A DNA stretch of 64,000 nt from Phycisphaerae bacterium (GTDB lineage: Bacteria; Planctomycetota; Phycisphaerae; Sedimentisphaerales; Anaerobacaceae), in NCBI GenBank assembly GCA_030608075.1, contig JAUWIU010000003.1, positions 1-64,000 of the forward strand, in the 5' to 3' direction. This document shows, piece by piece, positions 2,241 through 47,461 of this stretch; within the stretch, counting starts at the first letter, position 1; every line of letters begins with the position of its first letter. A program made the translations under genes and the position numbers. The notes beneath the pieces are model-generated. The model saw only the letters and a program-made list of their open reading frames with translations, did not search any database and was not told the DNA's origin.

Positions 2241-2254
2241 AGGTCATTCTCCAT

Positions 2255-2695: not shown

Positions 2696-2827
2696 GTATT
2701 TTAAGCAACTTCTTCCTATTCATTCAACAGGATTCTTAAATGCTTAAGATTATCACTCAGGCTGATTTACTTCTTCTATTTTCTTCTGAGTCTCTGCTTC
2801 TTTTTCTACTTTTCATTGTTCAAATTT

Positions 2828-4225: not shown

Positions 4226-4240
4226 CTTTGGTATCTCAAA

Positions 4241-8633: not shown

Positions 8634-8715
8634 GCCGCGCTAACGACACGATGCGGGGCTGTTACGGGAAATCAGGCTTGACGGCTTATTCAAAGAAAGG
8701 GCTAAAAACTCGGCT

Positions 8716-10088: not shown

Positions 10089-10120
10089 GTTTGTGCGGAC
10101 AGCAGGTGAGGAGCTTTTCG

Positions 10121-11554: not shown

Positions 11555-11573
11555 CTTTATTCTCGCCGGCCAT

Positions 11574-12023: not shown

Positions 12024-12206
12024 TTGGCGCCAAATAACCGTCTGTAATGCGTGCGTCGGACCAGGCAAAGAAGCTGGCGGCAAATCGCCCACAAAAAATC
12101 CGCCAATGACCCTTTTCAAAGTGCTGTACGTATTCTATCATAATGTGTGGTAAAGCAACACCGACTTATTTTCCCGAAAACTCCATAAACGCTGGGAGCT
12201 TAAAAA

Positions 12207-14063
12207 TTGGCTGGGCCGTATAAAGAAAAGCGAAGTCAGAGGTGTTCCGTAAAGCCGGCTTTGGATTTGACCGACGACTTGAAGCTGCCTGTAAATACGA
12301 TGGAGGTCCTGAAGCGGCGGTACCTGCTGAAAGACGCCCGGCAAAACATCATCGAGACGCCTGCGGAACTTTTCAGGAGAGTTGCACACAGTATTGCCGA
12401 GGCCGAGAATAATTTCAAATCAAAGCTCAGCGCCACCGACGTTGAAGAGACGTTTGAGCAGATGATGGCGAAGCTCGAATTCCTGCCCAATTCTCCGACC
12501 TTAATGAATGCCGGTACCTCTCTCGGTCAGCTTTCAGCGTGTTTTGTCCTGCCTATCCGCGATTGCATGGAAGGCATATTCGAGGCGCTCGGCAATATGG
12601 CGAAAATTCACCAGAGCGGCGGAGGAACCGGGTTCAGCTTCTCAAGCCTGAGGCCGAAATCCGACATCGTCGAATCCACAAAAGGCCGAGCCTCCGGGCC
12701 GGTCTCGTTTATGACCATATTCGACCAGGCCACGGGCGTCATCGTGCAGGGCGGAAGAAGACGCGGCGCAAATATGGGAATCTTAAGATGCGACCATCCG
12801 GATATAGTCGAGTTCATAGAGGCAAAAATGCGCGATACGGCGTTCAGCAATTTCAATTTGTCGGTCGGCGCCACCGACAGATTCATCCAGGCGGTCAAAA
12901 GAAATACGAATTTCAGCCTGCTCAATCCCCGCACGGGCAAAGTGGTCGAAAAGGTAAAGGCCGGCGGTTTGTTTGACGTGATTGTCAATGCAGCCTGGCG
13001 CACAGGTGACCCCGGGCTGGTATTTCTCGACGAGATAAACAGACGAAATCCCACGCCGGAGCTGGGACAAATCGAGGCTACGAACCCATGCGGAGAGCTG
13101 CCGCTGCTGCCGTTTGAGAGCTGCAATCTGGCTTCGATAAATCTTGCCAAAATGGTAAGGAACGGCCGCGTAAACTGGCGAAGGCTCGAAAAAACAATCC
13201 ACTGGGCAGTCAGGTTCCTCGATGATGTCATTGAAGTCAACAACTTCCCGCTTGAGCAGACCAGGCAGATTACCCTGGCAAATCGAAAAATCGGGCTGGG
13301 TGTAATGGGTTTTGCCGACATGCTTATCAAGCTCGCAATTGCCTATAATAGTCCGCAGGCGGTGGGCCTTGCGCGAAAGCTCATGCGTTTCATTCATCGG
13401 CAGTCTTTGGCCGCTTCAGCAGCCCTTGCCAAACAGCGCGGCGTATTTCCTAATTTCAAACGGTCAGTCCACGCACGCGACAATTTGAGGCTGCGTAACG
13501 CTACGGTAAATACCATAGCGCCCACCGGGACGATAAGCATAATAGCCGGCTGTTCCAGCTCGATAGAGCCCCTGTTTGCGATAAGCTTTGTGCGAAATGT
13601 CCTGTCGGGGGCGAAACTCTTTGAGACGAACGCGTTGTTTGAACAAGCCGCCAAAAAAGCAGGGATTTACAACAAAAGTCTCCTCTCCGAAATCGCCCGC
13701 AAAGGTTCCCTGCAGAACATAGGGGCAATCCCGCAGGACTTAAAACAAGTTTTCGTAACCGCCTTTGATGTAAAGCCTCGCGAGCATCTGGCGATTCAGT
13801 CCGCCTTTCAGAAATACACCGACAACGCTGTTTCAAAGACGATAAACCTGCCGGCAAACGCCACCGTAGACGATGTCAGGGACATATATTTGACGGCGCA
13901 CAAACTTAAGTGCAAGGGCATAACGGTTTACAGGTATGGCTCAAAGGCCGGCCAGGTACTTACCTTGCCTGACGCCGATGATGCTGCGGCATCCGGCGGC
14001 GAAGTCGTTACCGCAGGAGCCGAGTTTTCAGGCGGCTGCCCGACAAGCCTATGCGTTTTCTAA
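12207..14063 (+). CDS. nrdJ: Adenosylcobalamin-dependent (class II) ribonucleoside-diphosphate reductase
   Basis: The enzyme reduces ribonucleotides to deoxyribonucleotides with a cobalamin-generated thiyl radical and needs no oxygen. The sequence shows FLPNSPTLMNAGTSLGQL followed by SACF (the first redox Cys), HQSGGGTGFSFSSLRP, QGGRRRGANMGIL and DHPDIVEFI. The active-site triad is NPCGELPL with Asn, thiyl Cys and Glu, then SCNLASINL. IAPTGTISIIAG and a C-terminal pair CPTSLC, five residues apart, for external reduction complete it. The annotated start is a TTG; an ATG at 12300 would cut into the conserved VLKRRYLLKD region, so an upstream start is needed. At 618 residues it belongs to the compact NrdJ group. 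No B12 riboswitch was seen in the 87-nt leader. Confidence 0.92.
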   Translation: MAGPYKEKRSQRCSVKPALDLTDDLKLPVNTMEVLKRRYLLKDARQNIIETPAELFRRVAHSIAEAENNFKSKLSATDVEETFEQMMAKLEFLPNSPTLMNAGTSLGQLSACFVLPIRDCMEGIFEALGNMAKIHQSGGGTGFSFSSLRPKSDIVESTKGRASGPVSFMTIFDQATGVIVQGGRRRGANMGILRCDHPDIVEFIEAKMRDTAFSNFNLSVGATDRFIQAVKRNTNFSLLNPRTGKVVEKVKAGGLFDVIVNAAWRTGDPGLVFLDEINRRNPTPELGQIEATNPCGELPLLPFESCNLASINLAKMVRNGRVNWRRLEKTIHWAVRFLDDVIEVNNFPLEQTRQITLANRKIGLGVMGFADMLIKLAIAYNSPQAVGLARKLMRFIHRQSLAASAALAKQRGVFPNFKRSVHARDNLRLRNATVNTIAPTGTISIIAGCSSSIEPLFAISFVRNVLSGAKLFETNALFEQAAKKAGIYNKSLLSEIARKGSLQNIGAIPQDLKQVFVTAFDVKPREHLAIQSAFQKYTDNAVSKTINLPANATVDDVRDIYLTAHKLKCKGITVYRYGSKAGQVLTLPDADDAAASGGEVVTAGAEFSGGCPTSLCVF

Positions 14064-33762: not shown

Positions 33763-34293
33763 TTACTTTTTCTGCAGCATTTGAGCCTGTAGTTCTATTA
33801 GCTCTTCGGCGGTGACCGTCTCTTCGCGATAGTTGCCAAAAATCACTTTGTACTTACCGTCCGCAAGTTTCCAGTGCATCAGCAGTGCGTGGGAATCGTC
33901 CGGCGGAATACTATCACCGTAACATACGACCTCTGTGCCCCGGTTAATCAAATGCTGCTCGAAATCATTCAGCAGATTGCTTCGTCCCGAATCGCCGACT
34001 CCGAGGCAGTACTTTATCAATAGTTTGCTCTCTTTGTATAAACCATCGTTTGGCGAGTCTCTGCTGCCAAGAAAATTCAGGAACAAAGCGGTCGTCACAA
34101 TTATTATCGCGGCCGCCGCTAATCTATTTATCCTTAAATCTATTATGATATTGATTGTCCCCGTGCTGCTCTTTGATGGCATGAGCGGCTGCGGAATCTG
34201 GTGCTTTATAGCTTCGGCAAGCCCGGGGCTGACAGGCTCTGTTGTGGCATCTGCCAGTTCAGTTAGCAGTTTTTCCAGTTTTTCTTCTTTCAT
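33763..34293 (-). CDS. Putative membrane anti-sigma factor
   Basis: A 176-residue protein encoded 2 nt after the ECF sigma gene, with GGGGAATAG before its ATG. It has a cytoplasmic N-terminal region (residues 1-55, EKLEKLLTELADATTEPVSP), one transmembrane helix (about residues 57-74, RLAAAAIIIVTTALFLNFLG) and an exported domain ending in ETVTAEELIELQAQMLQ. This order fits a regulator that holds the sigma factor at the membrane. No zinc-binding anti-sigma motif (HxxxCxxC) is present, so its mechanism is not the classic ZAS type. Function is inferred from gene order and topology. Confidence 0.65.
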   Translation of the reverse strand: MKEEKLEKLLTELADATTEPVSPGLAEAIKHQIPQPLMPSKSSTGTINIIIDLRINRLAAAAIIIVTTALFLNFLGSRDSPNDGLYKESKLLIKYCLGVGDSGRSNLLNDFEQHLINRGTEVVCYGDSIPPDDSHALLMHWKLADGKYKVIFGNYREETVTAEELIELQAQMLQKK

Positions 34294-34295
34294 AG

Positions 34296-34856
34296 CTATT
34301 CCCCGCTTTCAGCAACAATCTGATTTTTCAGAGCTGTCACTGCCCTGTTGAGCCTGCTTTTGAAGGTGCCTTGTCTTATTCCAGCCGCCTCGGCAGCCTC
34401 GGCAATAGTCAGGTGCTGAAGGTAATGTAGTGTAAGCACCTGCCTGAATTTCATCGGCAGTTGTGCAACGGCTTTTTTCAACAACGTAAGCTGCTCTGAA
34501 TGTTCCAGGTTGTCAGGCTCACTCTGGCGGTTCCCCGGAACGTCAAATTCTTCAAGACTGACGGCCTTTTTAAGCTTATGCCTTCGCCAGTAGAGCTTTG
34601 AAATATTGGCTGCAATCCGATATAGCCAGCCGCTCAGCGACTTAGCTTCTCTCAACTGACCTATATGCTGCCAGGCCTGGATAAAGCTTTCCTGTGTTAG
34701 GTCCTCACTGACCTGACGGCTGTGCCCGAGTCTTCTCATAAACAGGTATATTTGCTGATAGTACATATCAACCAGCTCCGTTGCAGCGTCCTGATTTCCA
34801 GATTTCAGTCGAGCCGCGAGAGAATCCTGTTCTTGCTCCGAGCGTTGATTATTCAT
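34296..34856 (-). CDS. ECF-type RNA polymerase sigma factor
   Basis: A 186-residue sigma-70-family factor with region 2 (about residues 25-95: ATELVDMYYQQIYLFMRRLG, EDLTQESFIQAWQHIGQL, SGWLYRIAANISKLYWRR) and region 4 (about 125-180: QLPMKFRQVLTLHYLQHLTI, AAGIRQGTFKSRLNRAV). It has no region 3, as usual for ECF factors. It would direct transcription of a specific regulon when released from the anti-sigma partner encoded directly downstream. No autoregulatory promoter motif could be defined in the 149-nt upstream gap. Confidence 0.9.
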   Translation of the reverse strand: MNNQRSEQEQDSLAARLKSGNQDAATELVDMYYQQIYLFMRRLGHSRQVSEDLTQESFIQAWQHIGQLREAKSLSGWLYRIAANISKLYWRRHKLKKAVSLEEFDVPGNRQSEPDNLEHSEQLTLLKKAVAQLPMKFRQVLTLHYLQHLTIAEAAEAAGIRQGTFKSRLNRAVTALKNQIVAESGE

Positions 34857-35005
34857 GCGGACGTCTCAACACCTGTTTATAAGATGCGCAAAACCGGGCC
34901 TTTGTTTCATTTAATCCGTTTTTTTTTCAGTTTTTTTGCCTTCACCCGGCGAAGAAGCAGTCTATTGCAAATCCGGTTTTCCTGCAAGGCCGAGACCTGG
35001 GCGTA

Positions 35006-36088
35006 TTAGAATGGCTTTTTGCGTTCGATGTCCGTCCGTTCGTCCCGCGGATTAGCGGTCGAAATAGCCCTGATGGCTGACAAAAGGGCTTCAATGTTTG
35101 TGGTAGCGACGTCCGGGGGCATGCCCCCTCCGCAGGAAATGATAATGCGGCTCCTGTCCTCAAGGGATTCGAAAGCTGCTTTGACGCCGTGGCGGACCTC
35201 TTCGGCTGTGCCCTCGGCAAGAATGTCACGTGGCGGGATATTTCCGAGCAATGCGATAGTATTGTTCGTGAGTGCTTTCATTTCGGTGAGGCTATGCTCG
35301 AAACTGAAGTTGAACAGGTTGACGCCGATTTCTGGCAGATACGGCGCACACACCAGGCCCCCTGCATCGTTGTGAAAGAATTTGACAGTAACGTCGAAGG
35401 ATTGAAAAATGCGATTGAGATAGGGCAAGGCGACTTGTTTGAAATCGTCTTCGCCGCAGAAGCCCACAATATCGTCGAGGATAAATATGCCGTCGATGGA
35501 AGGGAACGTTTCGGCCTGCAGCCTCAGCCAGTCAATGATAAATTCCGTCACAATCCCCAGCAGCTTGTGGACCTGGTCAGGGTTGATTCGGATGGCCGTG
35601 AGGAATTCGCCACTGCCGAGGAGAAATGTTGCCACATTCAACGGCCCGCGAGAGACGGCGAACCTGATAGCGTGCCCTTCCTCTTGGATTCGCGACTGGT
35701 AATGTTTCAGGCGATTGAGGACTAATGGCGTCAGGCCGTCGGTGGCCGGATTGGGCCTGCCAAGCGAGTCAACACTTTCGATGTCCATAATCTTTTCGGC
35801 AAAGGGTAGCTGCGCATCGGACCACCGGCATTTGGTGCCGAACGCTGAAGGCTCTGTGCACATTCCGAACTCGGACCAGAACCCCGGAAAGAACATCACC
35901 TCGGGAAACCGGCGGACGGCCTTAAGATTGGCCTCGAACCACATCTGTTCGCTGGAGAAGTAGTCCATAAGCGAAATCCCCGCCCATTTCGGCAGCCAGG
36001 GGCTGTCGATGATAAAGCCGGCCGGCAGCGGCTCGAAGACTTCGCCGTTGATAACGGCCTGCAATTTCTCCCATTGCTCGCCCGTCAT
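35006..36088 (-). CDS. Uroporphyrinogen-decarboxylase-family (URO-D-like) protein, copy 1
   Basis: A 360-residue URO-D-fold protein (GFIIDSPWLPKWAGISLMDY, RFAVSRGPLNVATFLLGSG, DGIFILDDIVGFCGEDDFKQ, FFHNDAGGLVCAPYLPEIGV, IALLGNIPPRDILAEGTAEE, IISCGGGMPPDVATTNIEAL). True heme enzymes are different. Members of this branch are related to MtaA/MtbA/CmuA-type methyltransferases that move methyl groups to or from corrinoids and thiols. The Cys in SCGGGMPP may be a metal ligand, as in those enzymes. I place the start at the ATG at 36088, which overlaps the stop of the transporter gene (ATGA). The longer frame upstream merely overlaps that gene. Substrate unknown; no corrinoid protein lies nearby. Confidence 0.75.
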   Translation of the reverse strand: MTGEQWEKLQAVINGEVFEPLPAGFIIDSPWLPKWAGISLMDYFSSEQMWFEANLKAVRRFPEVMFFPGFWSEFGMCTEPSAFGTKCRWSDAQLPFAEKIMDIESVDSLGRPNPATDGLTPLVLNRLKHYQSRIQEEGHAIRFAVSRGPLNVATFLLGSGEFLTAIRINPDQVHKLLGIVTEFIIDWLRLQAETFPSIDGIFILDDIVGFCGEDDFKQVALPYLNRIFQSFDVTVKFFHNDAGGLVCAPYLPEIGVNLFNFSFEHSLTEMKALTNNTIALLGNIPPRDILAEGTAEEVRHGVKAAFESLEDRSRIIISCGGGMPPDVATTNIEALLSAIRAISTANPRDERTDIERKKPF

Positions 36089-37881
36089 TGTGCCGTCGCT
36101 CGCCTCTTTCGTTTGCGAATGATATGTACCACCGCGGCCAGCCCGATGTACGCAGCGACCGCAGCAACACCATACCAACCGGAACCAAACCGCTTCTTGG
36201 TTACAGACCATACAGCGTACGGACAAGCAAGCATGACTGTACCGGTGGCAATTACCATTAGCACGTTCCACGCAAGGCGCTTACCACCTCGGGGCATATA
36301 ATCACCCAACAGTTTCTTCTGGTTCATAAGCAGCAGGAACGCAAGGTACGCAATCGGGATGAGTGTGAACGCGAACACCGATGTCGGCACCGCCAGCCAC
36401 ATCTTAGCGTCTTTCCAGAAGAGCGGCCCAAGAGCGCCCACCGAAACCATCAAAGCGCCGATTCGCTGCGTCCAGCCTCTCGGCGCCCTGCCCAATAGCT
36501 CGCATAAACAAAGCCCGTTGATTGTCATCAGCATTGTTGCGGCGCTCATCGCCATCCCCATCACGCCGAGGCCAAACAGATATTGCGAGAGACCTCTTTC
36601 TTTACCGACGCCGAATAGTGGTGCCAATGTGTCGGCCAGGTTAAAGGCGTCACGCTTGACGAGCGTCGCAGCCATCCTTCTGTCTGCATAGGACAGCGCC
36701 TTTGTTCGCTCGGTTCGTTCTGCCCCGGACAGCTCTTGAAATTCTTCGATACCGATTTCGAATTTCAAACGTTGTGCAGTCAGATTATTGAATCGGCCCA
36801 CGAGCTCTTCGTCCACAGCTCTTGTTTGCACTTCACCAAGTAACGCCTTTTCCGGCACAGCGTGGAACTGAGATGCCGAAGCAATGACTACACAGCCGGT
36901 TGCAATAATAAACGGTATAAACAGTCCTGTCGACAAGTCGAAAATTGCCAGACCACGAAAGTCTTTGTCCCATCCTTTGCGCAGCATCGAGTAAGGCAGC
37001 AGGAAGGTCATATTGATGCCGACCGCGGTGGCCGCTGCGCTTATCATAACGTCGCGCTGTTGGCCAACAATCAAAGACGTCCAGAACCCCTGGAATTTGG
37101 GGTCGACCTCAGCGATAAACTTCATAATCTGCTCGGTAGGCCTGTATAGCAGTCGCAGGTCGGGCACCAGCCCTCGCAAAATCTGACCCCAATCCAGGCC
37201 GCCGGCTTCCACCGGTACCAGGCTCAGCTTGACTACGACGCCGAGAAAGCACAGCACAATCATAGTAACTACTGCTTTTATGATGATTTCAAATACTTTC
37301 ACACCTCGGCCCCCGGCACCGTAAAGGAACGTTACTGTAATGCACACCGCCAGAAAGCAGCAGCCAACCAGTATCTTACCCCACGGGTCCGGCATCGCTT
37401 CCGGCCCAACGAGTTTGGGAAAGATATTTTGCTGAATCGCCGCTGTTCCCAGCGCAAATTGGGGCAGAGACCATACGAGGTTGGCTATCATCGAGGCAAT
37501 CAGCCAGCCCCACCCAAGCACGGGATTGACGTGTTCATTTATCGCACGAAGCGGACGCTGGCCCGTAGATAGTGTTACATACCCAATCGCGCTGAGCATA
37601 ATGATACCTAACATCATTGCTAACGGCTGCAGCCACATAAAACTAAAGCCCACCAGCACACCTAAGTACAGACTCGACGACAACGACCCGCCGCCTAATG
37701 TAATTCCGCTTTGAAGCCAGCCGGGCCCGGACAACCTTGCAAATGTCTTGAAAATTGCTCCCCGGCCTTTTTCCCTGGCACTCGCGAGCATTTGCCGGTC
37801 TTTTTCGATGCGTGGATTCATGTGCATAATTTGCTGCTCCTGGCTTGGGGAGCTTTGTTCTGTTTCGCCGTTTCCAGCCAT
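36085..37881 (-). CDS. Nramp-like membrane transporter
   Basis: AGGAGG lies 7 nt before the ATG. The 598-residue protein has about 11 transmembrane helices. The first shows GPGWLQSGITLGGGSLSSS, the Nramp helix-1 region. Normal Nramp metal transporters have D-P-G-N here for binding Mn2+ or Fe2+; that motif is replaced by a Gly/Ser-rich stretch, so the substrate is probably not a divalent metal. A long insertion between residues ~350 and 430 is hydrophilic. It is sandwiched between, and coupled to, two URO-D-family genes, so it may import the compound they process. That is an inference. Confidence 0.7.
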   Translation of the reverse strand: MAGNGETEQSSPSQEQQIMHMNPRIEKDRQMLASAREKGRGAIFKTFARLSGPGWLQSGITLGGGSLSSSLYLGVLVGFSFMWLQPLAMMLGIIMLSAIGYVTLSTGQRPLRAINEHVNPVLGWGWLIASMIANLVWSLPQFALGTAAIQQNIFPKLVGPEAMPDPWGKILVGCCFLAVCITVTFLYGAGGRGVKVFEIIIKAVVTMIVLCFLGVVVKLSLVPVEAGGLDWGQILRGLVPDLRLLYRPTEQIMKFIAEVDPKFQGFWTSLIVGQQRDVMISAAATAVGINMTFLLPYSMLRKGWDKDFRGLAIFDLSTGLFIPFIIATGCVVIASASQFHAVPEKALLGEVQTRAVDEELVGRFNNLTAQRLKFEIGIEEFQELSGAERTERTKALSYADRRMAATLVKRDAFNLADTLAPLFGVGKERGLSQYLFGLGVMGMAMSAATMLMTINGLCLCELLGRAPRGWTQRIGALMVSVGALGPLFWKDAKMWLAVPTSVFAFTLIPIAYLAFLLLMNQKKLLGDYMPRGGKRLAWNVLMVIATGTVMLACPYAVWSVTKKRFGSGWYGVAAVAAYIGLAAVVHIIRKRKRRATAQ

Positions 37882-37911
37882 TTTTTAACCTCCTGTTTTC
37901 GAGAAGTTTTT

Positions 37912-38880
37912 TTAGACGTCCCTGGACAAAATATATTCTCTCGTTTTCAAAACCATTTGCGGGTCTGCTTCAAAGGGAAGGCAGCCTGTTCCCAGGCAGA
38001 CCTTCTCTCTATTCGCTGCCAACGCCATAACCCGGTCGACTTCACCGTAGGCAGCCGCGAGGTCACCTGACGCTATTATTCCGGGGTCCATATTTATCCG
38101 AACCATTACCTCGGGATGCGCCTGCATTTTTTTCATAAACTCCTGCTGGTCTGTTTCTGACGGACAGCAGACGTATCCGGTTCCCGTTTCCAGGATTGAG
38201 TCAAGAATCGGCGTCGTGTTTCCACCCATAACACAGGGGACGGGATGGCCGAGGGTCGCTGCTGCAGCTTCGATGATGGCTTTCAGGGCGGGAAGCTCAA
38301 TATCTCTAAACTGCCTGGGTGACATCAGCGGAGGCACCGCAGCCGACTCAAAAAAGGCAATATCCAATCCCTGGTCGGCAATCTCCTTAGCAAAGTGCAC
38401 TTGTCCGGCTACAAGATGCTTAAGGGCCTGACTGACCGAATCAGGGTCGGTGGCTATCGTGGACAGCAGATTCTCAAATCCAATCAGGTTGGTCGCCACG
38501 GAAAATGGCCCTGCCAGAGGTACTCGTACATCAGCTTCCGGACACTTCTCTGCGACACGTTTGGCCGCTTTTATCACCATCGGGATGCGGCCGTCGGTTT
38601 TCGGATTGAACGGTTTCAGGGCCGGGATTTCTTTTGGCGCCGAATATGGATGCCTGGAAATAGCGGGGATGCCATTTCCCAGAGGCCTTTGAACGGTTGC
38701 ACCGTATGCTTCGGCTTCCAGGTTGTATATGTCTATACCGACTACCACGGGACGATGGCGGTAAAGACGAAAAGCCTCGCAGTTGCCTTCAGCAAGCAGC
38801 TCGGCACTTCGCGATACCTCCCACGGACTCTTGTTAATGACTCTTGCAGCGTGTTCATATACCGAAGGTGAAAATTCCAT
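37912..38880 (-). CDS. Uroporphyrinogen-decarboxylase-family (URO-D-like) protein, copy 2
   Basis: A 322-residue protein of the MtaA/CmuA-like branch. It shows VVVGIDIYNLEAEAYGATVQ, EADVRVPLAGPFSVATNLIG, DIAFFESAAVPPLMSPRQF, VPCVMGGNTTPILDSILETG, YVCCPSETDQQEF, and KVCLGTGCLPFEADPQMVLK. The Cys in GTGCLP near the end is in the position of the zinc-binding Cys of methyl-coenzyme M methyltransferases. It is quite diverged from the paralogue at 35006, and the two probably act in sequence or on related methylated substrates. It starts 35 nt after the symporter gene and lies 30 nt before the Nramp-like gene, all in one operon. Confidence 0.75.
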   Translation of the reverse strand: MEFSPSVYEHAARVINKSPWEVSRSAELLAEGNCEAFRLYRHRPVVVGIDIYNLEAEAYGATVQRPLGNGIPAISRHPYSAPKEIPALKPFNPKTDGRIPMVIKAAKRVAEKCPEADVRVPLAGPFSVATNLIGFENLLSTIATDPDSVSQALKHLVAGQVHFAKEIADQGLDIAFFESAAVPPLMSPRQFRDIELPALKAIIEAAAATLGHPVPCVMGGNTTPILDSILETGTGYVCCPSETDQQEFMKKMQAHPEVMVRINMDPGIIASGDLAAAYGEVDRVMALAANREKVCLGTGCLPFEADPQMVLKTREYILSRDV

Positions 38881-38915
38881 TTAGTTTTTGTCCTTTCAAA
38901 AACTTTTTGCCATTA

Positions 38916-40601
38916 TTATTTCAGCAGTGCAAGCATCACGAAAACGGCTGCGGCGCAAAATCCTGCCGCGACAAAGAAGCCGACCCACGCTTGCCGCGAG
39001 GGTTTGACGATGACCAGCCCACCGGCGGTGAGAAGGCGCTTTGCCGGCGGCACCACCTCGTCAAGACTCAAACCGAGCTTTTCCTCCTGGCCGACAGGCA
39101 CATAGATTTTCGTGAAGAATTTCTCGATTACCCCACGGGCCGGGGCAGCAGTAATCAAGCTCCCGACAATAGCACCCGCCAGGCCCGTGACCAGCGGCAG
39201 CAGGGAAGCTAAATAATCTGGGATGAAATAATAGCTGGTTTTGCTGCTAAGCAGGATAAGTACGTAGACGGCTGTTGCCGGGAGGATACTGCAGAATACG
39301 CCGGCACTGTTCATTCTACGCCACAGGATACCCAAAGCCACCGCGATGCCTATAAAGCTTAAGATTCGGAAATATGCGATAATCGATGCCACAAAGGCGT
39401 CCTTGCACAGGACGGCAAAGGCCAGCGATATCGATATAATGACGATGCCGCCGATGCGAGTAACTCGTATCTGTTTGGCCGGGTCCGCATTTGGGTTGAT
39501 ATAGGTGCGATATATGCTTTGGGTAAAAAGTCCGGCGACGGTAACCTGCACGGCGTCTCCGGAGGACATCGCTGCGGCGCAAATGCAGGCGAGCATCAAC
39601 CCCTGAGCTGCTGCCGGCAAAACTGAACGAATGCAATCACCGAAAGCCGCATCGGGATGGATTTGCGAACCGGTTTTTATCAGATATGCGAGCCAGCACA
39701 GGCCTAAAATTGACCAGCCGATGGTGCAGATACGTTTGAGCATATTGCCGTAGGTAAATCCCATGCGCCCGGCCCATTCGTTCCGACCGGCACCACAGAC
39801 GCTCATCAGGTGCGGCAACGCCAAAGCGGTAAGTGGTGCGCTGATACATAACGTGATTACTTTCCACAGACTGAATCCACCCTGTGAGCTGAACAGGTTC
39901 AGATAGCTACTATTAGCGCCGGCAAGCGTTTGGCGCATTCCGGATAAGCCACCCACCTCTTCGAGCCTAAGAACTGGGCCGATTGCCATAACCGACAGGA
40001 TAATAATCATAAGGCCCTGAATCATATCGGTGCGGATGGCGGCGATGATACCGCCCCAATAGCCGTACACCACGAAAGTTACCGTAGTAACAAGCAAAAT
40101 GCCGTAAAACCACCAGTCAACCTGCCCGGGTCGGGCAATAAATCCTTCGCCCATCATTCCCTGAATGGTACGGACCGTACCGAGCAGAACGCCGGCGAAG
40201 AAAATGGTCATAGCGATGCCGGAGCTGATGGTGTAAAGTACCGCGGCCTTTTTGCCGAACCTTTCCTGAAAATAGTCGGCCATCGTCAAACAGCGCATAC
40301 GCCGCACGACCGGGGCAATGAGCCAGTAGAAAGGCGTGCCGAACATCCACATCCAGGAGACCCAGATACCCGAGGCCCCCGCCGAGACAGTCCTGCTGAT
40401 GGTGCCGGTTGTGTCACTCGGATTGGTTCCGGCGCCGAAGGCGTGCATTATCATATAGGCGACGCCGAACTGGCGGTTACCGAGCAGATAGCTCTCGGTA
40501 TTTTTGATTCGGCGTCTGCACGACCATCCCACAAGCAGCATACCGGCAAAGTAGAACGCCAATACCACCCAAATCGCATAGTTCAAACCGAGAAACTCCA
40601 T
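38916..40601 (-). CDS. Sodium:solute symporter (SSS family)
   Basis: The protein has 561 residues from the ATG at 40601, which has GGGAG 6 nt upstream. About 13 transmembrane helices are visible, with WSCRRRIKNTESYLLGNRQF and VSAGASGIWVSWMWMFGTPF near the N-terminus, then SSGIAMTIFFAGVLLGT, VVYGYWGGIIAAIRTDMIQG and ICAAAMSSGDAVQVTVAGLF, as in sodium-coupled sugar and solute carriers. A longer frame back to 40670 exists, but those 23 codons lie in an inverted repeat element and are not part of the protein. Context suggests uptake of the sugar or glycoside handled by the oxidoreductases encoded upstream. Confidence 0.85.
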   Translation of the reverse strand: MEFLGLNYAIWVVLAFYFAGMLLVGWSCRRRIKNTESYLLGNRQFGVAYMIMHAFGAGTNPSDTTGTISRTVSAGASGIWVSWMWMFGTPFYWLIAPVVRRMRCLTMADYFQERFGKKAAVLYTISSGIAMTIFFAGVLLGTVRTIQGMMGEGFIARPGQVDWWFYGILLVTTVTFVVYGYWGGIIAAIRTDMIQGLMIIILSVMAIGPVLRLEEVGGLSGMRQTLAGANSSYLNLFSSQGGFSLWKVITLCISAPLTALALPHLMSVCGAGRNEWAGRMGFTYGNMLKRICTIGWSILGLCWLAYLIKTGSQIHPDAAFGDCIRSVLPAAAQGLMLACICAAAMSSGDAVQVTVAGLFTQSIYRTYINPNADPAKQIRVTRIGGIVIISISLAFAVLCKDAFVASIIAYFRILSFIGIAVALGILWRRMNSAGVFCSILPATAVYVLILLSSKTSYYFIPDYLASLLPLVTGLAGAIVGSLITAAPARGVIEKFFTKIYVPVGQEEKLGLSLDEVVPPAKRLLTAGGLVIVKPSRQAWVGFFVAAGFCAAAVFVMLALLK

Positions 40602-40611
40602 AGCGACTCCC

Positions 40612-40698
40612 AGATTGCCGCGCCGAGCTTCAGTCGGCTCGCAATGACGGGCAAACGGCACACACGTCATTGCGAGGAGCGAAGCGACGAAGCAATCT
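40612..40698. repeat. Dispersed inverted repeat (CGTCATTGCGAG type)
   Basis: AGATTGC at 40612 pairs with GCAATCT at 40692-40698, and CTCGCAATGACG (40638-40649) pairs with CGTCATTGCGAG (40665-40676), so the element is a long imperfect palindrome with a 15-nt centre. It lies in the gap between the symporter and the first Gfo/Idh/MocA gene. Related motifs occur at 17576-17662. Translated, it gives the RHCEPTEARRGNL-like peptide that is a common false N-terminus in automatic gene calls. Confidence 0.75.
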
Positions 40699-40780
40699 CA
40701 ACCACCGATACTCACGTGGCTGTTCAAACGAGAGGATGGTACACGGGAAGCAGGGGTTTGTAAACATTATCCTCAGTGTA

Positions 40781-41962
40781 TCAGAACGTTTTGATTTCGA
40801 CCTCGGCGCCCATTTTCTCCGCTGAAACGTACGCGCTGTAAATAGTGGAGATGCAGTCGGCAGCGAGTCGGCTGTCCCTTTCGACCGGCTCACCATAGGC
40901 TGCGGCGCGGTAGAACGCCTCAATTTCCTGGGGATAACCGGTGAACCAGTCTTCGTCCGGGCAAGGATTAGACCAGCCCTGCTTGGTGCCGATTTTCTCG
41001 ACTACGTAGATGTCGGCGAAGTTTTCGTCGACCGGGTTGTAGGTCTGTATTGCGGAGGTGGGGTTTATATTGCAGATTGTTCGATGATTGTTGGCTGCCA
41101 CCTCAAGCTCGTTGTGAATACCTCCGAGAATAATGGCTGATGCGACACTGTCGACGAGCGTACCATCCTCGAAGACGACGTGCATGAGCGAAAAGTCGTC
41201 TATATCATAGTAGTCGGTGCGAATATGGCCTTCGTCCCTGAAGCCGGGCATTCTCGTTATTATATGTGTCCGGGCCGAAACGGAATTCGGGTGAATGACC
41301 CTGCCGCTGCGAGCCTTGCCCTCGACGCGCTTCAGATAAAGCGCCGCGGTGAGGGGGTGACAACCCTTGCCAATCATAACACCGCCGCCGGCAAACTTCC
41401 AGAAACCATAGTACTCTGCGTGCGAGCCCGAGTGCGATTCCTCGCCGTGCATCCACAGTATCTGAGCGCCGGTCTTCTCGATAATCTCGCGCTCTTTTTG
41501 AATTGACGGGGCATAAACCCAGTTCTCGGCGTAGAGGATTTTGCTTTTGCTTTTCGCTTCGGCGGCAATGAGCCTCTCGATACTGGCTAAGGCCTGGTCG
41601 AGCGCTTCGGTTTTGGGAAAGTCTTGGCCGTTGAAATCTTCCGACCCATCTCCGAAATAGCCGGTAAGCGGCTTTTCGACAATAGGAAACTTGTCCTGCT
41701 CAAGCACCGCAATTGCGATGGACTCGTGAGTCGAGGCCGGCGCACAAACATGAACAACATCGACACTGTCTATAAGCTGCTCTAAACTGCCGAACGCGCG
41801 AATCCTGCGCTTTTTGGCGTATTCCTTCGCCTGCTCGGTGTCGAGCGCGTACACGCCCTCGACCTGAACGTTTGTGCCGTAGACCTTTTTCAGGGCCTCG
41901 AAGTGAAATGTTGCGGAGAATCCCGCACCAACAATGCCCGCACGAACAGTTCTCTTATCCAT
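40781..41962 (-). CDS. Gfo/Idh/MocA-family oxidoreductase, cytosolic
   Basis: AAGGAG lies before the ATG. The 393-residue protein has an N-terminal NAD(P)-binding fold (VRAGIVGAGFSATFHFEALK, DSVDVVHVCAPASTHESIAI) with the conserved EKP catalytic Lys motif (FPIVEKPLTGYF). A C-terminal substrate domain holds WMHGEESHSGSHAEYYGFWK and GGGVMIGKGCHPLTAALYLK, the latter containing the catalytic-type His. No signal peptide is present. Such enzymes oxidise or reduce sugars or inositols with a tightly bound or exchanging nicotinamide. The substrate is unknown. It follows a Tat-exported family member, forming a cytosolic/periplasmic pair. Confidence 0.88.
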   Translation of the reverse strand: MDKRTVRAGIVGAGFSATFHFEALKKVYGTNVQVEGVYALDTEQAKEYAKKRRIRAFGSLEQLIDSVDVVHVCAPASTHESIAIAVLEQDKFPIVEKPLTGYFGDGSEDFNGQDFPKTEALDQALASIERLIAAEAKSKSKILYAENWVYAPSIQKEREIIEKTGAQILWMHGEESHSGSHAEYYGFWKFAGGGVMIGKGCHPLTAALYLKRVEGKARSGRVIHPNSVSARTHIITRMPGFRDEGHIRTDYYDIDDFSLMHVVFEDGTLVDSVASAIILGGIHNELEVAANNHRTICNINPTSAIQTYNPVDENFADIYVVEKIGTKQGWSNPCPDEDWFTGYPQEIEAFYRAAAYGEPVERDSRLAADCISTIYSAYVSAEKMGAEVEIKTF

Positions 41963-42002
41963 CCAAAATCTCCTTTTAGCTTATATCTGTAAAGAACTTG
42001 GC

Positions 42003-43391
42003 TTACAAATGCCACGGGCTGCGCATAGGTCTTGAGAGCACCCGCGAGGCTGTTTCGTCGCCGATGATTGCCTCTTTTTCCGGGTCCCATTTGATTTTTC
42101 GTCCGGTTCTGATGGCAATATCGCTAAGCTGGCTTATCGTGTCTGACCGCACCGCCGCTGCGATGGGGCTGATGGGCTCTGAGCGCATCCTGATACAATC
42201 AAGGAAGTTTTGTTTGTGGTCGGTGCTTTCCGGCAGGCGGATTTCATTGGGTGAAATGACCGACCTCAGCAAAGACGGCGGGTTGGCATAGGCTCGGCCG
42301 CGGTCTACGTTGACCCAGCCTTTCGTACCGACAAACAACGTCCCGTAGCTGCCGAACCTGCCGTAGCGGTTAAGGGTCGGCTGGGCGACACCTGCGCTCA
42401 TAAAATGCAGCTTCACGCCGTTGGTATATCGGCACCACACATCCCAGTCCGTGGCCGTATCGTACAGACCGTCCGTGGGAAAGACGCCGGCTCCCTCGTA
42501 CTCAATGGGGCTGGTGTGGTCCGTATTGTTGCCCCACTGAGCGATGTCAAGCGGGTGGGCTCCCCAGCCGGCGATAAAGCCCAGAGCGTAATCGGATATC
42601 CAGTTCTTGCCGCGATTAAAGCAGCGGTCATTGTTGAATGCGGCGACAGGCGCCGGCCCGAGCCAGAGGTTATAGTCGAAGCCCTCGGGAACAGGCTTAC
42701 CCTTTAGGGCCCCGCCGGGCTGACCGGCTGCGCACCATACTATGATTGTCTGAAGCCGGCCAATCCGACCATTGCGCACCAGTTCGCAGGCAAACCGAAA
42801 GTCCCGGCCTGACCGCTGCTGAGTACCATACTGCGCAACGTTCTTATACCGCCTCACGGTCTCGCGCAAGGTCCTGTCCTGTTCAACGCTCAGGCCCAGG
42901 GGTTTTTCGACGTATATGTCCTTGCCGGCACGCGCCGCGGCCAATGCAATCGGCACATGCCAGTGACACGGTGGTGCAATGACCACCGCGTCAATATCGT
43001 CGCGCGCAAGCACCTCACGAAAATCATTATATGTCGCACAGCCGCTGTATGTACCGCTTGTGCTTCGTTTAGCATAATGGGCATCGATATAGTCGGCCCA
43101 TGTTTCCCGCCGGGCTTTCAGCGGGTCACAGGTAGCTACGCATTGGGCATCGTTGTGCATGACAAATCCGCTGACGTGACCGCCTCCCATTCCGCCGACG
43201 CCGATGTGCCCGATTGTGATGCGCTCACTCGCCGGCGGTCTGGCGCCGCTGCCAAGTGCCGCTGACGTGATGACATAGGGAGCACCGAATGCCCCCGCCG
43301 CTGCGACGGCCGAGCTTTTCAGGAAGTCACGACGGCTAAGCCTGCCGGCGCTTGTCTTTGTTCCGCTTTTCACGTTATTTCCCTGTACCAT
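42003..43391 (-). CDS. Tat-exported Gfo/Idh/MocA-family oxidoreductase
   Basis: The N-terminus has a twin-arginine signal (LSRRDFLKSSAVAAAGAFGA), so the protein is folded with its cofactor before export. ITIGHIGVGGMGGGHVSG is the NAD(P)-binding turn, followed by DDIDAVVIAPPCHWHVPIAL and GKDIYVEKPLGLSVEQDRTL with the catalytic-region Lys. QYGTQQRSGRDFRFACELV, WLGPAPVAAFNN and WGAHPLDIAQWGNN fit the planctomycetal family in which a bound NAD supports glycoside cleavage or oxidation outside the cytoplasm. The start overlaps the upstream gene by 17 nt. A GTG at 43373, directly after that gene's stop, is an alternative start. Confidence 0.87.
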   Translation of the reverse strand: MVQGNNVKSGTKTSAGRLSRRDFLKSSAVAAAGAFGAPYVITSAALGSGARPPASERITIGHIGVGGMGGGHVSGFVMHNDAQCVATCDPLKARRETWADYIDAHYAKRSTSGTYSGCATYNDFREVLARDDIDAVVIAPPCHWHVPIALAAARAGKDIYVEKPLGLSVEQDRTLRETVRRYKNVAQYGTQQRSGRDFRFACELVRNGRIGRLQTIIVWCAAGQPGGALKGKPVPEGFDYNLWLGPAPVAAFNNDRCFNRGKNWISDYALGFIAGWGAHPLDIAQWGNNTDHTSPIEYEGAGVFPTDGLYDTATDWDVWCRYTNGVKLHFMSAGVAQPTLNRYGRFGSYGTLFVGTKGWVNVDRGRAYANPPSLLRSVISPNEIRLPESTDHKQNFLDCIRMRSEPISPIAAAVRSDTISQLSDIAIRTGRKIKWDPEKEAIIGDETASRVLSRPMRSPWHL

Positions 43392-46179
43392 CTGCTATTT
43401 TCTGTACTTCGACTTCCGGCGGCTCAGCAAAATCGTGCCAGATGCGCTCAGCGTCTGCAGCGCTGATTTTACCTTCGTGAACGTAAAAACGGTATCGAAA
43501 AACGTATTGTTTTGCCGGTTCCATAATCCAGTCGCCGAGCTGCTCCGGTGCGAAACCGAAGAATATATCCCCCGCTTCCCAGATTCGCATAGGTTCCGGA
43601 TGCCGGAAATTGTTCGGGTGGCTCATTGTTGTCACGCCGTTCCAGCCTTTTTCCACCAAACCAAACGTGTCGCACCAGCGTGCCCGTGTCCCTTGCCCAT
43701 CCTTGCGGGTTTTGCCTTGCGAGGTCAGGTAATCGGCGTGTGTCCATTTGTCCGTTGCTCTAAAGCCGAGTCCGCCGTAGTGATGCTTGAGGATACGTAA
43801 AGGGCTTTGGGTAGCGCAGCTCTGCGTCGACACCAGGTCCCACAGCCGGTAACCCTTGTCGCGACCGCCGACGTTGTATACCCGGACATCCCACGTTTCG
43901 TTCAGCGCAACTTCTTCGCCGCCAGGCGCCTTAAGGTCGACATGCTTATGCTGCACCACGAAGCGACCAAAGACAGGCCCGCTTTCAATAGAGTCGAGGT
44001 GAGCGAATCGCACAGTACCTTCGCCCTTCTGGAGATTCCAGAAATCGATTTTTCGGCCCTGGAATTTGGTCTTCGTCCACGCCATCCAGATTCCCATGTG
44101 ATGGATATGGTGCTGCGGATGAATTTGCGTCAGTACCGTGCCTGTCGGCGACCAGAGCGGATGGATGAATCCGCTGCGGGCATACACTGCATCGGCGCCC
44201 TGCGGCGGTGGGACAAGAGCATGATTGTATCGCAGGACTTTGTCTTTTCCTATTTGGATTTGTAAGCATAAGTCGCTCTTTATGACCTGGACGCCCGATG
44301 ATGGTGACTTTGTTTTCGATGCCTTAACCGAAAAGCGATGTTGGATGCCGGGCTGCAAACTAATGGTGATGCCTTCCTGCAGGTGCTTGCCCGTATAAAT
44401 CTCTTTCGAGTTGGTTGTCAGGTTTTCGACGGAATAATTCTTTTCGCCCTGAACGGTAAACCACTCGGGGAACTGGTTGATACGGGGCCAGTCAACGGGC
44501 ATGTTCATATTTGTCTGATGGCGAGGCCTGTCGAAGATGACCCTGCCTTTCCACGGCCTTTCAGCGATGATACTGACATTGAGGCTGGTACCATTTTGTT
44601 CGGCGCCAAAGATGACATCGTCTCGCCAGGGTCGGATTGTTAGCCCTTTTGTTTTCCACAGACAATACATCAGAGTCGTTCGGGCAAAGTTGCCGTCGCC
44701 GTGCCATCCTTCGATGACTCCGTCAGGTTTCTGCTTGTTCCACATCACCTTTATTTCGCTGTCAATCCAGTCAGCACTTGACGGCACGGGTTCGCGATTA
44801 TAGAGGTTGATGGCACTTTCAATGGAGTCGGCATATCCGTCGGCGCCGTGGCCTTCCCACAGGTAATTCCTGTAGTTTTGATTAATGTGCCCAAGCGCTT
44901 TGAGGACGGCCTGCCGGTATGCCTCGGTCCCGTCTATCAGATATACCGTGTAATATCCGTTCAGAGTATAGCCCCAGGTGTCGCAAAGAGCTTCGCTGTG
45001 TGAGCCATCCTGGGGATTAATCGAATCGTAGAACAGGCCATCGTCGTTACGGCCAACTTCCAGGATGCGGTCGAGCATTTCGTGAATGGGTTTTTGGTAT
45101 GATTGCTTTTTGTCCTGTCTCGCAAAGTGGATGGTGGCGTACAGCTCGCACAGGCCGGAGACGATTTCGCAGCCGTGGTCTCGCAGCCTGAGTTTATTCT
45201 CATCGCGCGTGGGATGATGGCTGTCCAGCAGGTAGTAATCGCCCAGGCGGATTGCCCAGTCCAGATATTTCTTCTCGCCGGTCATCCAGTAGATGCGAGA
45301 AAGCGTCTGCAGCATTTCGCCGTTGATTTCCTGGTTGCCGGAAACGATTTTCCCATATTTCGTCTCAATCGGCGCAAGTTTCCACATATCATCGAGCATG
45401 GAAATCATTCGCTGCGACCAGGGACTCGGTCCCAGCCATTCGGTGACGGGCAGCAGGCCGTCTTTAATGTATTCGGAGGCACCGAAGATAATGCGGCCAA
45501 GGTCAGGTTCGGCGTCTCGGAAACTCTGCCTGCAAAAAAGGTATGTATCCGGCAGGGTCCCGATGCGCGAGGTAAGCCTTGTTTCGGTGCGCAGCATATC
45601 GAGCATTCGTCCCTCGAAGGCAGGGCGGTCTATCATGGCGGCAGTTAAGACCATAAAGGGGTAATTATCCGCGGCGCTATTTGCCGCGTCCCAGTACAGC
45701 TTGTTTTTGTCTGTGCTGATTTTTCTGGGAATCAGCCCGCTTTTTGGGTCGGCGTGTTCGAGCCAGCCTTTGACATATCTCTTACAGCGTTTGAATCCTT
45801 CGTTGGCCAGCCGTCCATTTTCCAGGGCCTGACTGAAGGTCGAGGCTTCGCTCAGAAGTTCAAAGACGCGTTTGGCACCGGCTGGTGTCGTACCGGAGAG
45901 TATCCAGGATAGCTGCTCACCGCCGGCCTGGTTGATTTGTGTTGGAACAAACACCCGTTCGGAATCTTTGATTTCTTCCAGACGCAATGCAGTGGTCGCA
46001 GAACAATTATACACCTCATCAAGCGGCATTGAAATCGGCGTATCAACGCGAACATGCTCTCCCGCATCGACAATAATCTTTGCCACTTTCTCGGCGACAG
46101 TTGCGGATTGAAACACCAGGCCTAACAATAAAGCAAGCACAGCACTTGAGTCAGCGGAAAGAAATTTTGAAGTTTTCAT
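43375..46179 (-). CDS. Exported alpha/alpha-barrel protein fused to a DUF6807 (PmoA-like) domain
   Basis: I start the gene at the ATG at 46179 because a signal peptide follows directly (KFLSADSSAVLALLLGLVFQ); a longer frame from 46347 has no such support. Residues ~120-540 form a helical (alpha/alpha)-toroid like that of glycoside hydrolases or lyases (DAANSAADNYPFMVLTAAMI, YWMTGEKKYLDWAIRLGDYY, CDTWGYTLNGYYTVYLIDGT). Residues ~640-925 form a DUF6807 domain, named PmoA in databases (YARSGFIHPLWSPTGTVLT, HHIHHMGIWMAWTKTKFQGR). The latter is not a methane monooxygenase and its role is unknown. The fusion is the first gene of a long minus-strand operon. Confidence 0.75.
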   Translation of the reverse strand: MKTSKFLSADSSAVLALLLGLVFQSATVAEKVAKIIVDAGEHVRVDTPISMPLDEVYNCSATTALRLEEIKDSERVFVPTQINQAGGEQLSWILSGTTPAGAKRVFELLSEASTFSQALENGRLANEGFKRCKRYVKGWLEHADPKSGLIPRKISTDKNKLYWDAANSAADNYPFMVLTAAMIDRPAFEGRMLDMLRTETRLTSRIGTLPDTYLFCRQSFRDAEPDLGRIIFGASEYIKDGLLPVTEWLGPSPWSQRMISMLDDMWKLAPIETKYGKIVSGNQEINGEMLQTLSRIYWMTGEKKYLDWAIRLGDYYLLDSHHPTRDENKLRLRDHGCEIVSGLCELYATIHFARQDKKQSYQKPIHEMLDRILEVGRNDDGLFYDSINPQDGSHSEALCDTWGYTLNGYYTVYLIDGTEAYRQAVLKALGHINQNYRNYLWEGHGADGYADSIESAINLYNREPVPSSADWIDSEIKVMWNKQKPDGVIEGWHGDGNFARTTLMYCLWKTKGLTIRPWRDDVIFGAEQNGTSLNVSIIAERPWKGRVIFDRPRHQTNMNMPVDWPRINQFPEWFTVQGEKNYSVENLTTNSKEIYTGKHLQEGITISLQPGIQHRFSVKASKTKSPSSGVQVIKSDLCLQIQIGKDKVLRYNHALVPPPQGADAVYARSGFIHPLWSPTGTVLTQIHPQHHIHHMGIWMAWTKTKFQGRKIDFWNLQKGEGTVRFAHLDSIESGPVFGRFVVQHKHVDLKAPGGEEVALNETWDVRVYNVGGRDKGYRLWDLVSTQSCATQSPLRILKHHYGGLGFRATDKWTHADYLTSQGKTRKDGQGTRARWCDTFGLVEKGWNGVTTMSHPNNFRHPEPMRIWEAGDIFFGFAPEQLGDWIMEPAKQYVFRYRFYVHEGKISAADAERIWHDFAEPPEVEVQKIADGTGK

Positions 46180-46515
46180 TTGTCGCTCTTGCTCAATTAG
46201 GTCCGCAAGGCTTTCAGCCACTTTCAGACCCGTAAACGACGGTATTAATCCTGTCGTTGCCGGCAGCGCATTGCCATTTCGGGGCAAACCCGGCAACTCC
46301 ATTACAGAGATTGGACAAGCCCTTCTTTTAAGACAGCTATACGGCAAGAAGAATAATCAATAATGGAAACAATAGCAAGAACGGTTCGATAAAACGTCCA
46401 GAATTTGGTTTTTCGCGGTATAGCTTGGAAGAGCCGGCAATTTCGTCGACTGGCAACGTTAAAAGCAACATTCCCCTGCACAAAGAAAAAAGTGTCCCCG
46501 GCAGCGATTATTTTC
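46180..46515. other. Divergent intergenic region, no gene seen
   Basis: This is about 340 bp between the alpha/alpha-barrel gene (minus) and the FHA gene promoter (plus). Short inverted pieces such as GCCGGCA and CCGGCAACTC occur near 46250-46290 but form no clear terminator. I find no coding sequence with a ribosome site. Confidence 0.45.
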
Positions 46516-46544
46516 TTGACAAATGATGGATAATGTGTTATAGA
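46516..46544 (+). promoter_or_regulatory. Sigma70-type promoter of the FHA-GAF gene
   Basis: TTGACA at 46516-46521, a 17-nt spacer, then TATAGA at 46539-46544. The -35 is perfect and the -10 has five of six consensus bases. The FHA gene starts 32 nt further on, after GGGAG. It is the best consensus promoter I see in the window. Confidence 0.75.
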
Positions 46545-46576
46545 TATTTTAGAGTTTAATTCAGGCAGGGAGAGCA

Positions 46577-47461
46577 ATGCGTGTAATTGTGAAACAAAGT
46601 GACGGCACTATCAGCCAGTTTCAATTCACAAAAGGACCCGTCTCTATAGGCAGACGGTCCAGCAGCCAGATTGTCCTGCCTGACAGGGCGGTCTCAAAGG
46701 AGCACGCGGTAATATTCGTTACTGACGGGGGGAAATGGGTGGTTGAAGATATGGATTCGTCCAATAAGACGTATCTAAACGACGACGTGGTCGACAAAGC
46801 GGAAATTAAAAGCGGTGATTGCCTGCGCATAAGTGATTTTACGCTCGAGGTCAACCTTGAGGACAGTGCCGATGCCGACGAAGTCGTTGGCGCCGAAGAT
46901 ACGCTTCATCTGGAAGCGGCGCTGGCGACCCCGCCGCACGAAATAGTAGTAAGGAAACCGGACGCCGGTCACGCCCCCGCCATGAGATTAGCAGCCAAAA
47001 GACTGACGGATTTTTCGCGAGCCACCGAGGTAATCTGCCAGGCGGCCAATCTCGAAGAGTTGCTTCAGGTATTAGTGGATGTAACGTTGCGGCAATTCAG
47101 TGCTTTCCATACCTGGTGTGCTCTTCGGGAACAGCCCAGCGGCCCTATCACCTATCATGCAGGCAAGAGAAGGGATGGGCGAAAAGTAGAGTTAAGCAAT
47201 ATTATACTTGGCGACAAAATCAGTGATGCGATTAAGAGAGGTCAGTCCATGGTTTTGCCGCGAGTTGCGGCACAAATAGAGGAAAAGGAAAGGATTCGTT
47301 CGGCGCTGATAGCGGCTATTATGCGTCCGACGGGCTGTTTCGGCGTGTTATACGTCGACAATGCTATGATGCACACGCACTACAGTCTCAGCGACCTGGA
47401 CTATCTGATGCTGGTCGCGGTCCACACAGCCGCGGTACTAAAGAAGCTTCTGAATTTGTGA
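46577..47461 (+). CDS. FHA-domain protein with a GAF-like domain
   Basis: Residues 1-95 form a forkhead-associated domain with the phosphothreonine-binding signature (SIGRRSSSQIVLPDRAVSKE, HAVIFV, EDMDSSNKTYLNDD, LRISDFTLEV). After an acidic linker, residues ~140-294 form a GAF-like sensor domain (SRATEVICQAANLEELLQVL, MRPTGCFGVLYVDNA). FHA-GAF proteins are cytosolic signalling partners of Ser/Thr kinases or cyclases; here no output domain is attached. It has its own strong promoter and GGGAG ribosome site, and it precedes the cytochrome-flavoprotein operon by 100 nt. It could therefore be a regulator of that operon or simply a neighbour. Confidence 0.85.
   Translation: MRVIVKQSDGTISQFQFTKGPVSIGRRSSSQIVLPDRAVSKEHAVIFVTDGGKWVVEDMDSSNKTYLNDDVVDKAEIKSGDCLRISDFTLEVNLEDSADADEVVGAEDTLHLEAALATPPHEIVVRKPDAGHAPAMRLAAKRLTDFSRATEVICQAANLEELLQVLVDVTLRQFSAFHTWCALREQPSGPITYHAGKRRDGRKVELSNIILGDKISDAIKRGQSMVLPRVAAQIEEKERIRSALIAAIMRPTGCFGVLYVDNAMMHTHYSLSDLDYLMLVAVHTAAVLKKLLNL

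Follow-up and report, generated by a model that had tools for sequence, protein, structure and literature searches.

What does a transporter of the Nramp fold do when its gene is nested between those of two divergent URO-D-family enzymes? The question is raised by a 64,000-nucleotide stretch of DNA, hereafter the window (contig JAUWIU010000003.1, positions 1 to 64,000, assembly GCA_030608075.1), from an uncultured Phycisphaerae bacterium from sediment. An earlier note had described there a trio of URO-D1, an Nramp-like transporter and URO-D2, and had read it as a set for the use of a methylated compound within a glycan operon. The trio is a real, conserved module. It may well belong to a module for the uptake and catabolism of carbohydrates, with a transporter that carries an organic solute and not a metal, a reading to which we give about an even chance. 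The three genes are the last of a seven-gene run on the minus strand (46347-35006) that encodes, in order, a DUF6807 protein, GfoA, GfoB, an SSS symporter and the trio:

37912-38880, minus strand: URO-D1, URO-D family, 322 residues; PF01208 at 119.1 or 116.0 bits, these being the scores of the two URO-Ds (cut-off 23.9); GG[DN]T in the position of the zinc HxC motif
36085-37881, minus strand: Nramp-related transporter, 598 residues; PF01566 at 47.7 bits (cut-off 29.8); GGGS for DPGN in transmembrane helix 1 (TM1)
35006-36088, minus strand: URO-D2, URO-D family, 360 residues; ATG at 36088; HNDAxG in the position of HxCGN

Conservation of the trio and its carbohydrate setting

The arrangement is as first described. 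A gap of 30 nucleotides separates the end of URO-D1 from the start of the transporter, and URO-D2 begins within the end of the transporter gene, with a 4-nucleotide overlap (ATGA); the list of open reading frames (ORFs) also holds a longer GTG start for URO-D2, at 36271 within the transporter gene. A genome scan gave at least 563 transporter relatives, and locus counts were taken from the best 80, which come from Planctomycetota, Hydrogenedentota, Kiritimatiellia, Lentisphaerota, Verrucomicrobia and one Aminicenantes metagenome-assembled genome. URO-D2 is present in 18 of these 80 loci, GfoB in 16, URO-D1 in 13 (one of which, L079, has a C-terminal fragment only) and at least one URO-D in 21; here and below, L numbers denote loci or stretches and G numbers genomes. 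The overlap between transporter and URO-D2 is exactly 4 nucleotides in 15 of the 18 loci. It is 52 nucleotides in L082 and 31 in L091, where URO-D2 is broken into two ORFs, and in L114 (Kiritimatiellia) GfoA and GfoB stand between the two genes, which are 2.7 kb apart. Conservation of the trio, which the earlier note had named as a check on its reading, is borne out by these counts. Among 61 related genomes, a transporter of this type (57-73% identity, E≤1e-160) is found in 19, the host included, and any match in 25; the 61-, 397- and 80-member sets used in this work share genomes and are not independent.

Some copies appear to be in disrepair. Upstream of the transporter at L042/L079 stands just a C-terminal remnant of URO-D1 (52 residues, 50% identical), as if decaying. 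On one contig of G036 (L056 and L063), transporter residues 14-443 lie beside URO-D1 and residues 474-596 far off, as would follow from breakage and relocation of the gene.

The enzymes also keep company where no transporter is present. Among 397 genomes of the class, with the first 4-5 candidates per genome scored, GfoB was found in 35 (E≤1e-150), URO-D2 in 56 (E≤1e-110) and URO-D1 in 26 at E≤1e-40 or 20 at E≤1e-100. GfoB and URO-D2 occur together in 25 genomes against an expectation of 4.9 (hypergeometric, ignoring kinship), and among the 20 URO-D1 genomes 15 also have GfoB and 15 also have URO-D2, kinship again being ignored. At least 12 of the 397 (G257, G358, G036, G380, G030, G221, G031, G361, G372, G304, G369 and G087) carry GfoB and URO-D2 at most about 120 nucleotides apart with no transporter adjoining, and GfoB adjoins URO-D2 also in another class (L238). 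The nested trio therefore looks like the form that a wider enzyme set takes in one lineage. Where the Nramp-like gene is missing, another carrier can be found beside URO-D1, which points towards an organic substrate: one of the SSS family in L186, L187 and L192, and one of the MFS family in L185 that matches Sugar_tr and, below cut-off, models for sialate and aromatic-acid H+ symport.

Around URO-D2, we viewed 47 loci (L265-L311), two of which, L285 and L310, have the transporter. GfoA-type matches number 24 within 4 kb of URO-D2 (332.4 kb) against 7 farther away (338.4 kb). DUF6807 matches number 8 against 2, an undercount because the query missed two Pfam-confirmed DUF6807 genes (L283, L296), and GfoB lies within 4 kb of URO-D2 in 11 loci. 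Genes of the Gfo/Idh-DUF6807-ThuA-3-keto-disaccharide hydrolase sugar loci recur in this way beside URO-D2. In the part of the literature surveyed we found no description of URO-D proteins in such loci.

From gene order, overlap, conservation, co-occurrence, missing motifs, fold and neighbours, all of them observed, we infer a substrate class, a direction of transport, an order of steps and a kind of reaction. The Nramp-related protein would be a secondary transporter, a symporter, most likely of a glycan-derived sugar or sugar acid, and the translational coupling of transporter and URO-D2 would fit uptake joined to processing. GfoB would oxidise the substrate, and URO-D2 and URO-D1 would act on the substrate or on its oxidised product. 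They would neither decarboxylate a porphyrinogen nor carry out zinc-thiol methyl transfer; as candidate reactions, a keto-sugar acid might undergo decarboxylation, elimination or isomerisation. It is tempting, if rather doubtful, to go further: URO-D-fold enzymes made together with an Nramp-fold sugar or sugar-acid symporter might, along with GfoB, catalyse a reaction not yet described in the anaerobic breakdown of glycans, with glucuronate or 4-O-methylglucuronate as examples of what is degraded.

If this is true, the Nramp fold would gain a new class of substrate and the URO-D fold a new kind of chemistry. In the excerpted text of PMC12873925 most Nramp-related groups count as uncharacterised, and for most URO-Ds of the order no function is known. 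The present set, conserved, translationally coupled and with a dehydrogenase as its recurrent partner, offers a defined cluster for testing both questions. It is also a warning that automatic names probably misread this module.

The glycan operon of the earlier note is a fair description, if a thin one in the window itself, which offers two Gfo/Idh proteins, a DUF6807 protein and an SSS symporter. Pfam was run on 40 URO-D2 neighbours picked by eye, so that the matches are not rates. They include fucosidase with GH2 (L268), a 3-keto-disaccharide hydrolase with GH97 (L269), GH97 (L309), GH10 with GH43 (L272), GH67 (L274 and L289, one genus), GH2 (L277, L278, L307) and a GH120-like protein (L281). 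Fucose isomerase is found in L270, with SASA on the opposite strand, and SASA in L282; L271 has UxaC, UxaE, an SDR and a Gfo/3-keto-hydrolase fusion. DUF6807 (L265, L266, L283, L296), ThuA (L275, L294, L295), FGGY kinase (L295, L300), Gfo/Idh (L305) and XylR-type regulators (L279, L280) complete the carbohydrate-related matches. Not clearly carbohydrate-related are a radical SAM protein with a B12-binding domain (L294), FGE-sulfatase/HZS-alpha (L281), an N_methyl/pilin-like protein (L306), NHL (L282), and Lar_N and HAD (L271).

Two URO-D-fold enzymes and the question of methyl transfer

Which reaction the two enzymes might catalyse can be approached through their motifs. We aligned the URO-D1 and URO-D2 groups jointly with 27 further URO-D rows taken from the same order and class. 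The His-x-Cys zinc pair is found in 15 of the 27, all from the order and including the corrinoid-linked L221 and L250-L253. Both URO-Ds of the trio lack it: URO-D1 has [VI]-x-G, with a glycine (G219) at the place of the zinc cysteine in 10 of 10 sequences, and URO-D2 has H-x-D, with H239 and D241 in 18 of 18 and C319 in 16 of 18. The HxC...C zinc ligands that mark the MtaA/MtbA type (MT2) are accordingly absent from both. So is the HemE arginine motif RQAGRY, which is present in the HemE-like L249; against a HemE family cut-off of 303, URO-D2 reaches 54.2 bits and URO-D1 is not listed. Among NCBIfam models, methylcobamide methyltransferase subfamilies score best for both, though far under cut-off (68.1 against 235.4 for URO-D2, 80.1 against 244 for URO-D1). 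The URO-D2 model (mean predicted local distance difference test, pLDDT, 85.3) matches human UROD at Z 31.2 (327 residues aligned) and MtaA at Z 31.1 (328 aligned), a tie, and the fold therefore cannot choose between the two known functions. URO-D2 thus resembles in fold both HemE and the MtaA/MtbA methylcobamide:CoM methyltransferases (PF01208), and the pair differs from the former in motif and family score and from the latter in the zinc pair, in model scores and in that no linked corrinoid gene was found near the trio. The label 'uroporphyrinogen decarboxylase' is probably wrong for both groups.

URO-D proteins are numerous in the order, with at least 28 matches in G039 (28 of 48 candidates scored). 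In a tree read without support values, URO-D1 groups with L191-L194 and L196, which have GG[DN]T or a close variant. The relative in L191 (34%) lies in a minus-strand run (5798-13088) with an OYE/glutamate-synthase-like flavoprotein, an SDR, an FAD oxidoreductase and a KHG/KDPG aldolase.

The methyl handling that the earlier note proposed would make URO-D2, URO-D1 or both O-demethylases that depend on a corrinoid protein and act on a methylated sugar, for instance 4-O-methylglucuronate, which the transporter would import, the corrinoid protein and its activator being encoded elsewhere. We regard this as unlikely; its likeliest form would be the demethylation of a methylated uronate. The loss of HxC from both enzymes speaks against it, and so does the scarcity of partner genes. 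In tblastn searches with two corrinoid and two RACo queries, just 4 of 165 stretches (the window and L039-L202, 2.14 Mb, among them short pieces, five host-genome stretches and duplicates of a genome available from two sources) gave a match, namely L109, L151, L186 and L187, and none of the four holds the full trio. The only corrinoid match is that in L109, where no URO-D1/2 match is found; RACo matches are those in L151 (partial), L186 and L187. A further 55 URO-D2/GfoB stretches (L265-L319) gave neither. The nearby corrinoid protein that characterises the UroD-type O-demethylases (MT1: MtvB, OdmB, VdmB, CdmB) was thus seen in 1 of 165 and 0 of 55 stretches. The same corrinoid queries match 6 of 17 URO-D-paralog stretches, and as those six were preselected this shows only that the query works.

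Other observations lean towards demethylation. The methylcobamide methyltransferase models come out on top for both enzymes, if far below cut-off. RACo is found in 56 and B12-binding_2 in 60 of the 61 related genomes, as partners encoded elsewhere would require, but with the trio present or not; near-ubiquitous genes do not discriminate, and the genome-wide check of corrinoid and activator genes that the earlier note had in mind is therefore uninformative. In L186 and L187, of one genus, a RACo-type activator lies a few kb from the URO-D1/SSS pair. A 526-residue ORF follows URO-D2 in L290 and L294, also of one genus, and the one in L294 encodes a radical SAM protein that has a B12-binding domain. 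According to the excerpted text of PMC13222342, CdmB and a Moorella demethylase are without zinc and some UroD-type demethylases work zinc-free, and our corrinoid-linked paralog L254 has F-x-C in place of H-x-C. The missing motif therefore argues against the MtaA/MtbA type and not against every demethylase.

GH67 bears on the same question. The usual product of this alpha-glucuronidase carries a 4-O-methyl group, and GH67 adjoins URO-D2 in one genus, so that a methylated uronate stays a candidate substrate. Strong GH67 matches occur in 6 of the 61 relatives, all six with URO-D2 (URO-D2 in 31 of 61; p 0.013, uncorrected and ignoring kinship), whereas the other 25 relatives with URO-D2 have none. 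No catabolic demethylase of 4-O-methylglucuronate was found in the part of the literature surveyed.

As a side observation, L109 encodes at 938-4564 a MetH-sized ORF of 1208 residues with a corrinoid domain, divergent from an Nramp-like gene without URO-D1/2.

The transporter and what it may carry

The transporter belongs to the PF01566 superfamily both by Pfam score and by fold. Its first helix is altered, as the earlier note had seen: LGGGS aligns with LDPGN of human NRAMP2. The pattern L-G-G-[GV]-[ST] holds, with rare exceptions at L, across 40 rows, in which the metal ligands of TM1 are exchanged, aspartate for glycine in 40 of 40 and asparagine for serine in 38 and threonine in 2 (residues G63, G64 and S66). 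The MPH motif of TM6 is absent anywhere in the protein, and TM6 reads VGINMT in 40 of 40 rows, paired with the canonical helix by spacing only. Neither canonical Nramp/SLC11 signature, DPGN (DxxN) in TM1 or MPH (AxxM) in TM6, is therefore present, and the substrate is probably not a metal, in line with the earlier note. The label 'metal transporter' is probably wrong for this whole family of at least 563 relatives.

The AlphaFold model (pLDDT 88.7) has only Nramps as its top solved-structure matches: BfraNramp (Z 39.5, 371 aligned, 2.4 Å), DraNramp (39.4), EleNRMT (37.9) and YcsG (36.7), the best non-Nramp carrier among the matches listed being at Z 26.4. Absences in fold searches were not counted as evidence. 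Residues from about 340 to 428 form a helical stretch, probably an insertion, and a PDB sequence search with the transporter profile gave nothing informative.

Nramp-related proteins without DPGN and MPH exist (PMC12873925, a 2026 phylogeny, and PMC8806188, both in excerpt), namely NRMT and the YcsG/MntG/PxpT group ('G-motif 3'), which likewise keep the Nramp fold. Unlike these, the present transporter combines GGGS with VGINMT, is about 600 residues long and is coupled to URO-D2; its GxxS and VxxN (TM6 by spacing) do not match the NRMT signature DxxG-TxxA/T. A closer parallel in gene organisation is pxpTABC of Corynebacterium glutamicum, where an Nramp-family secondary transporter is encoded with enzymes that use its likely organic substrate. 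In the portion of PMC13274462 available, PxpT is needed for growth on 5-oxoproline and its authors do not exclude metal transport. The enzymes there are 5-oxoprolinase subunits, whereas here they are URO-D and Gfo proteins.

Several observations weigh against a carbohydrate module with an organic-solute carrier. As many as 59 of the 80 best transporter loci have no URO-D1/2 match, several contigs being short, and the transporter therefore has a role outside the trio. The stretches from Pontiellaceae bacterium B12227 (L135) and Verrucomicrobiaceae bacterium E54 (L116), two carriers whose records are not labelled as metagenome-assembled, likewise have the transporter and neither URO-D. Six of the 80 loci, and the window too, have SSS and Nramp-like genes together, and this weakens the argument from replacement. 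A PEPCK match lies in the same stretch as the transporter in 15 of the 80 loci, with and without URO-Ds, and single loci have PFOR (L048), citrate synthase (L093) or PFK (L121) beside it. Neighbours of URO-D2 include PFOR (L273), DNA polymerase I (L302) and proteins matching no family (L286, L308). The GfoB profile met PDB entries through its NAD-binding part only, which is not informative. YcsG/MntG, the relative of PxpT, is reported as a manganese importer in the excerpted text of PMC10448178.

These central-metabolism genes suggest that the Nramp-like family might carry a small carboxylate tied to PEPCK or PFOR, the URO-Ds having joined later in one lineage. The citrate synthase, the probable carriage of a carboxylate by PxpT (PMC13274462, in part) and a dehydrogenase nearest tartronate semialdehyde reductase in 7 of the 80 loci (206.5 bits, cut-off 340.75) would agree with this. 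We think it quite unlikely, as URO-D2 and GfoB often stand in glycan loci without the transporter, and as a second, shorter transporter subfamily (L057-L062, 31-38% identical, no URO-D1/2 match) adjoins heparinase II/III-like, GH129, GH5, ThuA or xylose-isomerase-like genes. Import of a divalent metal such as Mn or Mg for the URO-Ds, PEPCK or xylose-isomerase-like enzymes is improbable: the wide margin of the Nramp fold matches, the metal transport by NRMT and YcsG/MntG despite altered sites (PMC8806188 and PMC10448178, each in excerpt) and the PEPCK genes are offset by the exchanged TM1 ligands, the VGINMT of TM6, the unmatched NRMT signature and co-translation with sugar-locus enzymes.

The carbohydrate module with an organic solute thus retains the altered motif, the non-metal substrate, the conservation and the glycan context of the earlier interpretation, and parts from it over methyl handling.

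The rest of the gene run

The four genes ahead of the trio are:

43375-46347, minus strand: DUF6807 protein, first gene of the run; its N-terminal half resembles GH127 below cut-off (17.3 against 24.9 bits)
42003-43391, minus strand: GfoA, a Gfo/Idh/MocA oxidoreductase with a TAT signal; distant from the BT_2158 glycoside 3-dehydrogenase (120.4 bits, cut-off 750)
40781-41962, minus strand: GfoB, a Gfo/Idh/MocA oxidoreductase, linked to the transporter, URO-D1 and URO-D2
38916-40670, minus strand: SSS-family sodium:solute symporter (Pfam/NCBIfam)

GfoB has no signal peptide match, and its mean column identity is 84% over 8 aligned sequences. The assembly that holds the window is 1.5 Mb long and 67% complete, with 8 URO-D matches, 6 of them above cut-off. 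Promoter and terminator scans of 34200-46800 stayed at chance level.

Judging from the sequence, the real start of the SSS symporter is probably near 40601, because homologs align from residue 21 onward. At about 40600-40750, ahead of the gene, translations give RHCEERSDEAI, a phrase met in interspersed repeats of many bacteria, and the ORF start at 40670 probably runs into this stretch. On the other side of the run, 149 nucleotides beyond URO-D2 and on the same strand, lies an ECF sigma factor (34296-34856), followed after 2 nucleotides by a small minus-strand protein with one hydrophobic stretch (33763-34293), which, judged by eye, is a possible anti-sigma factor.

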